Below are positions 2,241 through 3,806 of a DNA stretch of 64,000 nt, piece after piece (position 1 is the stretch's first letter; each line of letters begins with the position of its first letter). The stretch comes from Bacteroidales bacterium (GTDB lineage: Bacteria > Bacteroidota > Bacteroidia > Bacteroidales > JAADGE01). Where the stretch lies: contig JAKISF010000001.1 in the NCBI GenBank assembly GCA_021648725.1, positions 124,001 to 188,000 of the forward strand, written 5' to 3'. A program made the translations under genes and the position numbers. The notes beneath the pieces were generated by a model that was given only the letters and a program-made list of their open reading frames with translations, did not search any database and was not told the origin of the DNA.

Positions 2241-2271
2241 TTTGTTATTTTTATAGTAATTAATAAATTTG
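2241..2271 (+). promoter_or_regulatory. Bacteroidota-type promoter for rpsU
   Basis: TTTG at 2241-2244 and TAAATTTG at 2264-2271 are separated by 19 bp. This matches the -33 TTTG / -7 TAnnTTTG promoter known from Bacteroides. Transcription should begin near 2275-2279, giving a leader of about 40 nt that carries the strong ribosome binding site of rpsU. Confidence 0.75.
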
Positions 2272-2302
2272 CCGTTTAAAATTTTTATAACAATAATTAA
2301 AA

Positions 2303-2310
2303 AAAGGAGA
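2303..2310 (+). promoter_or_regulatory. Strong Shine-Dalgarno sequence of rpsU
   Basis: AAAGGAGA lies with its GGAG core at 2306-2309, six nt before the rpsU ATG at 2316. This is a textbook Shine-Dalgarno. Nearly all other genes here, including tuf, the ribosomal protein genes and rpoB, lack one and have only A/T-rich leaders. In Bacteroidota the anti-SD of 16S rRNA is sequestered on the ribosome partly by bS21, so a strong SD on the bS21 gene suggests autoregulation. Confidence 0.85.
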
Positions 2311-2315
2311 TTTTT

Positions 2316-2510
2316 ATGATTAAAATACCCGTTAAAGAAGGCGAAAGCATTGAAAGAGCTTTAAAAAGATTAAAACGAAAAATTGACAGAACAGGTGTTA
2401 TTAAAGAAGTTCGTATCAGAAAACAATTTAATAAACCTTCTGTTTTAAAACGTCAACAACTTATTAAAGCTATATATGTTGAGCAGTTAAGAAGAGAAGA
2501 AAACGAGTAG
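2316..2510 (+). CDS. rpsU: 30S ribosomal protein bS21
   Basis: A small basic protein of the 30S platform, bound near the 3' end of 16S rRNA. The 64 aa and the pattern IPVKEGESIERALKRLKRK followed by a basic helix are typical bS21. Tyr54, in KAIYVEQ, is in the C-terminal helix; I recall this residue as part of the pocket that holds the anti-Shine-Dalgarno in Flavobacterium ribosomes. The gene has its own promoter (2241-2271), an unusually strong Shine-Dalgarno (2303-2310) and its own terminator (2524-2561), so it is a single-gene unit. Regulation by free bS21 level is an inference from that leader. Confidence 0.97.
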   Translation: MIKIPVKEGESIERALKRLKRKIDRTGVIKEVRIRKQFNKPSVLKRQQLIKAIYVEQLRREENE

Positions 2511-2523
2511 TTTAGTTTTTCAC

Positions 2524-2561
2524 ATTACTTTTCTGAGGTTTTTTTACTTCGGGAAAGTAAT
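2524..2561 (+). terminator. Rho-independent terminator after rpsU
   Basis: Arms 2524-2539 and 2546-2561 pair over 16 bp with three G-U wobbles, with a six-T loop, followed by TTTCTC. It begins 13 nt after the rpsU stop and separates rpsU from the recombinase gene. Confidence 0.75.
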
Positions 2562-3506: not shown

Positions 3507-3806
3507 ATGGATATAAACATAAAAACTACGCATTTCGATGCAGACAAAAAATTAATTGATTTTGTAAACAATAAAGTCAATAAACTGGATAAATATTTTG
3601 ACGGAATAATAAGGTCAGAAGTTTCTCTTAATTATAACAAATCAAAGAAAAAATTTACGGAAAATAAAGAAGCTAAAATCAAAATTGAAATACCCGGCAG
3701 TGATTTATTTGCAGAAAAAGAAGCAACAACATTTGAAGAAGCTATTGACCTAACCCTTGATGCTCTTGAAAAACAAGTTAAAAAATACAAAAGTAAATTG
3801 AAGTAA
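3507..3806 (+). CDS. hpf: Ribosome hibernation-promoting factor, short form (HPF/RaiA)
   Basis: Binds the 30S decoding region in stationary phase and inactivates or dimerises ribosomes. The 99 aa make a single HPF/YfiA domain with the beta-alpha-beta-beta-beta-alpha pattern: MDINIKTTHFDADKKL at the start, the ATTFEEAIDLTLDALEKQVKKYKSK helix at the end. There is no C-terminal dimerisation extension, so it is the short type. It lies 5 nt after the recombinase gene and just upstream of the tRNA-tuf promoter. This neighbourhood (bS21, recombinase, HPF, tRNAs, tuf) is, as far as I know, common in Bacteroidota. Confidence 0.93.
   Translation: MDINIKTTHFDADKKLIDFVNNKVNKLDKYFDGIIRSEVSLNYNKSKKKFTENKEAKIKIEIPGSDLFAEKEATTFEEAIDLTLDALEKQVKKYKSKLK

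Follow-up and report, generated by a model that had tools for sequence, protein, structure and literature searches.

The leader of rpsU, the gene for ribosomal protein bS21, carries a real Shine-Dalgarno (SD) sequence that most likely takes part in a published translational feedback and shares this role with the SD of rpsR, the gene for bS18. In Flavobacterium johnsoniae, the 3' tail of 16S rRNA lies in a pocket built from bS21, bS18 and bS6, and ribosomes poor in bS21 favour rpsU mRNA (McNutt et al., 2023; PMC9976891, cited here from excerpts). In the genome described here, the SD is complementary to the genome's own 16S rRNA, rare, present on both of these pocket genes and conserved in the genus. 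The feedback itself is already published; new are the lineage and the series of states in which it is met. A demonstrated case of specialized ribosomes thereby reaches a lineage without a previously reported qualifying rpsU, and close relatives in which rpsU, rpsR or the two together carry an SD form a natural series in which bS18 sensing, the SD strength needed and the sweeping-in of other genes become testable. The window named below is the whole stretch of DNA that was analysed, 64,000 nucleotides in length.

The rpsU leader and its transcription unit

The GGAG motif that the earlier note had placed six nucleotides ahead of the rpsU ATG is there, as the core (2306-2309) of a longer nonamer, AAAAAGGAG, which is separated from the start codon by ATTTTT (Table 1). 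The 3' end of the genome's own 16S gene reads ...GGAACACCTCCTTTTTAGAG, ends ...GGCTGGAACACCTCCTTTTTAGAG and includes the CCUCC anti-SD; the rpsU leader is therefore able to form nine contiguous Watson-Crick pairs with it. In the predicted helix the GGAG core pairs with CUCC and five A with five U, at 16S positions 1536-1544, read from the gene end in an E. coli numbering assigned in this analysis. The helix has an energy of -8.95 kcal/mol as a nearest-neighbour sum with initiation, and of -10.7 kcal/mol by RNAduplex. Both values lie above the limit of < -13 kcal/mol given in the excerpts of PMC9976891, where free_scan was used.

Folding of the leader bears on whether some other regulatory route operates, such as binding of the rpsU leader by bS21 itself or masking of the SD in a folded structure. 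A weak A/U hairpin can place the rpsU SD in its loop, as such a route would have it; however, shuffled sequences fold as well as the leader does (z -0.27), and the T run flanking the rpsU SD is absent from the rpsR leader. A route of this kind is considered highly improbable, and pairing with the 16S tail is preferred.

Several features of rpsU as a unit had been claimed from the sequence and were confirmed. Upstream lies a match to TTTG-19-TANNTTTG, which we take to be the Bacteroidota-type promoter pattern, and its TANNTTTG half is retained in all 12 genus leaders that were aligned, the TTTG half only in some; the pattern itself occurs at chance level across the window (8 matches vs 5.7 expected). 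The hairpin after the rpsU stop has an MFE of -22.9 kcal/mol (z -5.6), in line with the strong terminator that had been described. With its putative promoter and 3' hairpin, rpsU looks like a short autonomous unit. Tyr54 of bS21, said to be conserved, is present in the window protein, in an alignment column at least 90% conserved among 16 sequences.

The neighbours of rpsU are an acyl-CoA dehydrogenase gene, a phage-integrase-family recombinase gene, presumably xerC, and hpf. Beyond hpf follow tRNAs and then frames that we take, from their sequence and order, to be tuf, secE, nusG, rplK, rplA, rplJ, rplL, rpoB and rpoC. Two genes downstream of rpsU lies a member of the ribosome hibernation factor family (PF02482).

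Table 1. Features of the rpsU unit in the window and other loci of the same genome named in the text.
Feature	Position	Strand	Evidence
Putative Bacteroidota-type promoter of rpsU, TTTG-19-TANNTTTG	2241..2271	+	pattern match
Shine-Dalgarno of rpsU, AAAAAGGAG	2301..2309	+	sequence, own 16S tail, pairing energies
rpsU, ribosomal protein bS21, 64 aa, Tyr54	2316..2510	+	PF01165 E 2.3e-17; alignment
Terminator-like hairpin 3' of rpsU, 16 pairs	2524..2561	+	fold of 2505-2580
Ribosome hibernation factor family gene	3507-3806		PF02482
rpsR (bS18)	G000 C1:222755		
rpmI (bL35)	G000 C30:26150-26361 (L531 2651-2862)		
rpmI with AAAAGGAG	C30:26164		
DUF4476 gene	G000 C6:904-1656 (L530)		
Site with AGGAGG before a putative lipoprotein gene	C5:38399-38415 (L442)		
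ECF sigma factor and following gene	L112:16152-17224		
ATPase-like gene and following gene	L126:2060-3770		

Rarity of SD sequences in the genome

Pairing energies were computed for 353 called starts in 448 kb, comprising the window and 384 kb of the same genome, and for mock windows located 22-29 nt upstream. Four starts reached -8.9 kcal/mol or better, against no mock window; at -6 there were four starts and one mock window, and at -5 six of each. Relaxed calling, with every ATG within the first 25% of a gene admitted as a start, left the four at -8.9 unchanged and added two further starts at -8. Two of the four are rpsU and rpsR; the others follow an ECF sigma factor gene and an ATPase-like gene, and their SDs fall inside the last part of the reading frame ahead of them. 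At these two loci the ECF sigma factor gene overlaps the gene of the small protein that follows it, the ATPase-like gene overlaps that of the protein after it, and a perfect SD sits inside the end of the first gene in each pair. As the earlier note had it for tuf, rplK, rplL, rpoB and secE, other starts tested in the window are without an SD: all 12 genes (the acyl-CoA dehydrogenase gene, xerC, hpf and the nine frames from tuf to rpoC) score -2.9 or weaker. The mock window of secE, which falls in a tRNA gene, reaches -6.9.

Genome-wide scans were employed for two strong motifs, AAAAGGAG and AGGAGG, before ATG starts. The pattern AAAAGGAG-N4-10-ATG gave 39 sites, all of which were classified. 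Four are intergenic and precede a gene, namely rpsU, rpsR, rpmI (bL35) and a gene encoding a DUF4476 protein; the remainder lie inside genes, in overlaps or before no notable gene, with one ambiguous site (L372) right where a longer frame begins. The SD of MoaA, which is on this list, lies in the end of the preceding gene. The pattern AGGAGG-N3-9-ATG occurred 88 times genome-wide, without excess over its reversed counterpart (106). In the fetched loci, 87 distinct AGGAGG sites were found: 66 inside longer frames, four in the end of an upstream frame and 17 intergenic. Only two of these 17 precede a frame of at least 60 codons, one being the DUF4476 gene and the other that of a putative lipoprotein, whose AGGAGG stands in noncoding DNA ahead of the start. 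Strong SDs are thus almost absent from the genome, and rpsU belongs to a very small set of SD-bearing genes, not to a set of one. Its rarity as an outlier thus stood, while its position as the sole outlier did not.

Other SD-bearing genes

That rpsU alone carries a strong SD, as had been proposed, is contradicted first by rpsR, located between rpsF and rplI, which has the identical AAAAAGGAG (-10.7), and then by near equivalents at rpmI and the DUF4476 gene. Among ribosomal genes, rpsU does not have the strongest SD: it ties with rpsR, and rpmI reaches -10.0. Both rpsU and rpsR have their nonamers at spacings from the start that suit an SD. The start of rpsF, which encodes bS6, had no SD in the energy test.

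The gene rpmI lies between infC and rplT, and is not among the SD-bearing ribosomal genes listed in the excerpts of PMC9976891. Before its start, AAAAGGAG was found in five of 11 genus genomes (family loci L454-L472); the SD is absent in the four genus genomes that lack the rpsR SD, as it is in G319 and G324. In the sister genera the comparison covers the three of seven genomes whose rpmI start fitted the search pattern. The DUF4476 gene has AAAAGGAGG before its start, in noncoding DNA, and its product has a signal-like N-terminus.

These additional carriers raise the question of whether the SD merely raises or fixes the translation rate of rpsU and rpsR, with no feedback, because part of the 16S tails would be free at all times and direct pairing would benefit a short leader. 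The rpsU SD is indeed moderate (-8.95) and under the published threshold, and neither rpmI nor the DUF4476 gene encodes a pocket protein. However, a generally useful free tail predicts that strong SDs would be commoner than the four found among 353 starts, the AGGAGG-ATG spacing has no excess over the reversed pattern, and the few carriers include two of the three genes for pocket proteins. An SD without feedback is therefore regarded as unlikely. Feedback through the 16S tail agrees better with this distribution.

rpsU and rpsR SDs in the genus and sister genera

The family sample comprised 21 genomes. An rpsU SD of at least AAAAGGAG was found in 10 of 13 genus leaders; its core is lost in G318 and G322, and G326 keeps AAAAAGGA without the GGAG core. 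The sequence around the SD varies among these leaders. None of the seven sister-genus genomes has an rpsU SD. Conservation of the motif among relatives, the check suggested by the earlier note, was thus observed inside the genus and failed in the sister genera.

These counts also bear on the possibility that the leader is a relic in decay, or an accidental match in A-rich DNA, with no present function. Leaders in this genome are indeed rich in A (GC 0.32), and the motif is lost in two and damaged in one of the 13 genus leaders. Against this, AAAAAGGAG was counted 28 times in 2 x 448 kb, which gives a chance of ~2.5e-4 per given start with eight allowed registers, yet it is met at both rpsU and rpsR; and 10 of 13 leaders have kept the motif despite varying surroundings. 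A relic or chance match is very unlikely, and a functional SD is preferred.

A strong rpsR SD was identified in nine of 13 genus genomes. It is lost in G204, G320, G321 and G323, which retain the rpsU SD. Every one of the 12 genus genomes with both leaders has at least one of the two SDs: four have that of rpsU only, G322 (and G326, at the GGAG core) that of rpsR only, and six both. Several of these genomes are close sisters, so the 12 are not independent cases. In the sister genera the rpsR SD is present in four of seven genomes, and the other three (G313, G314 and G329) have neither SD, from which it follows that the circuit is dispensable in the family. A rule that at least one SD is always present was considered for the whole family and is ruled out by the same three genomes.

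In a tree of ten proteins, the genus is grouped at 100/99, with several weak branches inside it, and the fewest changes needed are three for rpsU, three for rpsR and two for rpmI. The presence of the rpsU SD in 10 of 13 genus leaders vs none of seven in sister genera implies a gain in the genus or losses elsewhere. The simplest reading is that the genus gained it at its root, on tree counts that cannot separate gain from loss. It is conceivable, though we hold it tentatively, that the control handle of the tail-sequestration feedback has been moving in this genus. An ancestral state with the SD on rpsR would have gained the rpsU SD; some species would now carry both together with that of rpmI, forming a small regulon that serves ribosomes in which a pocket protein is scarce; and in a single subgroup the SDs of rpsR and rpmI would have been lost, making it independently rpsU-only like Flavobacteriales.

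Survey of the order

The order was sampled with 295 genomes from 120 families. Both leaders were read in 64 genomes outside the family (f1), which come from best-first listed matches and not from a random draw, some families giving two or three of them; rows with one gene only, and G032, G078 and G194, in which the rpsU start was missed in parsing, were left out. By RNAduplex, an SD at -5 or better was found for rpsR in 48 of 64 genomes and for rpsU in 12 of 64. Mock windows reached the same level in 12 of 64 and five of 64, respectively, so weak SD calls in this survey include chance. At -5 by RNAduplex, four genomes have both SDs, eight that of rpsU only, 44 that of rpsR only and eight neither (Fisher p 0.0008), and scoring by contiguous helix gave an anticorrelation with p 0.002 at -5 and 0.036 at -6. 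When ancestry was considered, using a tree of three short proteins with 83 rows, 3-4 independent pairs on supported branches were obtained, with no direction and too few for significance at 0.05. A general seesaw between rpsU and rpsR is not supported after ancestry, most of the signal coming from a single clade of 10 rows (G040, G094, G103, G110, G119, G124, G130, G201, G265 and G269).

In this clade the rpsU SD is present in eight of 10 rows and the rpsR SD absent in nine of 10. Its rpsU SDs include imperfect ones, e.g. AGAAAGGTAG, and its bS18 starts with IKYLTP vs IRYLTP in most of the surveyed genomes; G066, outside the clade, also has IKYLTP. Elsewhere in the order, G008 has an rpsU SD of -15.6 and an rpsR SD of -9.4 (nearest-neighbour sum). 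No 16S gene was found in G008, whose rpsU would meet the energy limit of McNutt et al. provided that its 16S tail is the usual one.

The 16S tail reads CCTCCTTTTTAG in all three readable genus tails (L001, L219 and L220) and CCTCCTTTCT in all 11 genomes read from other families (L394-L404). The rpsU base facing 16S nt 1543, a number assigned in this analysis, is A in each of 12 genus leaders (the weak G318 left out) and G in seven of 15 others, which were hand-picked as SD-bearing (p 0.008). Covariation at this position, a single contrast on an A-rich background, is only suggestive.

Proposed mechanism

The explanation that we favour, and consider probable, is that the SDs of rpsU and rpsR restore the missing pocket protein through a freed 16S tail. 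By analogy with F. johnsoniae, the 3' tail of 16S rRNA would most likely be held in the bS21-bS18-bS6 pocket of complete 30S subunits, and subunits without bS21 would free the tail and favour the few mRNAs that carry an SD. Subunits without bS18 probably behave likewise, so a shortage of bS18 would probably be sensed in the same way as one of bS21. Here the preferred mRNAs would be those of rpsU and rpsR, with their identical nonamers, and the pocket would close again once the missing protein is restored. Since rpsR encodes another protein of the tail pocket and has the same SD, the circuit here is probably a joint one.

Several observations were counted against feedback: the rpsU helix is weaker than those published, the rpsU SD is lost or damaged in three of 13 genus leaders, three sister-genus genomes have no SD on either gene, and the SDs of rpmI and the DUF4476 gene have no obvious link to the pocket. 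The feedback circuit that the earlier note had read from the rpsU leader nevertheless remains the best reading and is backed by the F. johnsoniae work excerpted from PMC9976891; what falls away is rpsU as its only SD-bearing gene and an SD of published strength.

Comparison with published systems

Among known structures, bS21, bS18 and bS6 of this genome best match chains of PDB 9i5v, followed by the F. johnsoniae ribosome 7jil. Fold searches with a bS21 model (mean pLDDT 85, pTM 0.42) returned weak matches only, and 9i5v was not among the matches listed. A structure for the F. johnsoniae system was reportedly presented by Jha et al. in 2021. Two rpsU paralogs per assembly were observed in one Mesonia assembly (L046, L076) and in Haloflavibacter putidus (L047, L077); a GGGAGGTGA-type SD precedes one paralog of each pair, and the other, being SD-free, could escape feedback.

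According to the excerpts of PMC9976891, loss of bS21 function in F. johnsoniae raises translation of rpsU and of an AGGAGGU reporter, and not of SD-less reporters, and a tuf reporter with AGGAGGU rises >2-fold with bS21-deltaC. On the energy scale used here, the AGGAGGU of that reporter scores -10.28, so an SD of about the strength found at rpsU is able to respond. McNutt et al. argue for an extended SD as a requirement, with rpsU SDs of -14 to -21 kcal/mol and values < -13 as characteristic; in the excerpted text, their survey of complete genomes has no member of Bacteroidales in which the strongest SD is that of rpsU and lies below -13, and Chlorobia are given as lacking Tyr54 of bS21 (PMC9976891). 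For rpsR, SDs of -7 to -14 kcal/mol are reported there in Bacteroidales, Cytophagales and Sphingobacteriales (Jha et al., 2021, via PMC9976891). The feedback model is restated in the excerpts of PMC8710568 and PMC10783764. A search of literature titles and abstracts, with subscription papers and preprints outside its scope, returned none on rpsU SDs of Bacteroidales or on a switch of the SD from one of rpsU and rpsR to the other inside a single genus.

The genome described here resembles the rpsU autoregulation of F. johnsoniae in having rpsU alone in its transcription unit, an SD-poor genome, Tyr54 and the CCUCC anti-SD. Unlike F. johnsoniae, it probably belongs to Bacteroidales, its rpsU SD has nine pairs at -8.95 or -10.7 kcal/mol rather than < -13, its rpsR shares this SD and a similar one precedes rpmI. 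Its Tyr54 speaks against Chlorobia, and the large number of families in its order suits Bacteroidales. It resembles the Bacteroidales type, in which rpsR carries the SD, in that its rpsR SD falls within the reported -7 to -14 kcal/mol, and differs from it in having an SD of equal strength on rpsU, with four species of the genus carrying the rpsU SD only.
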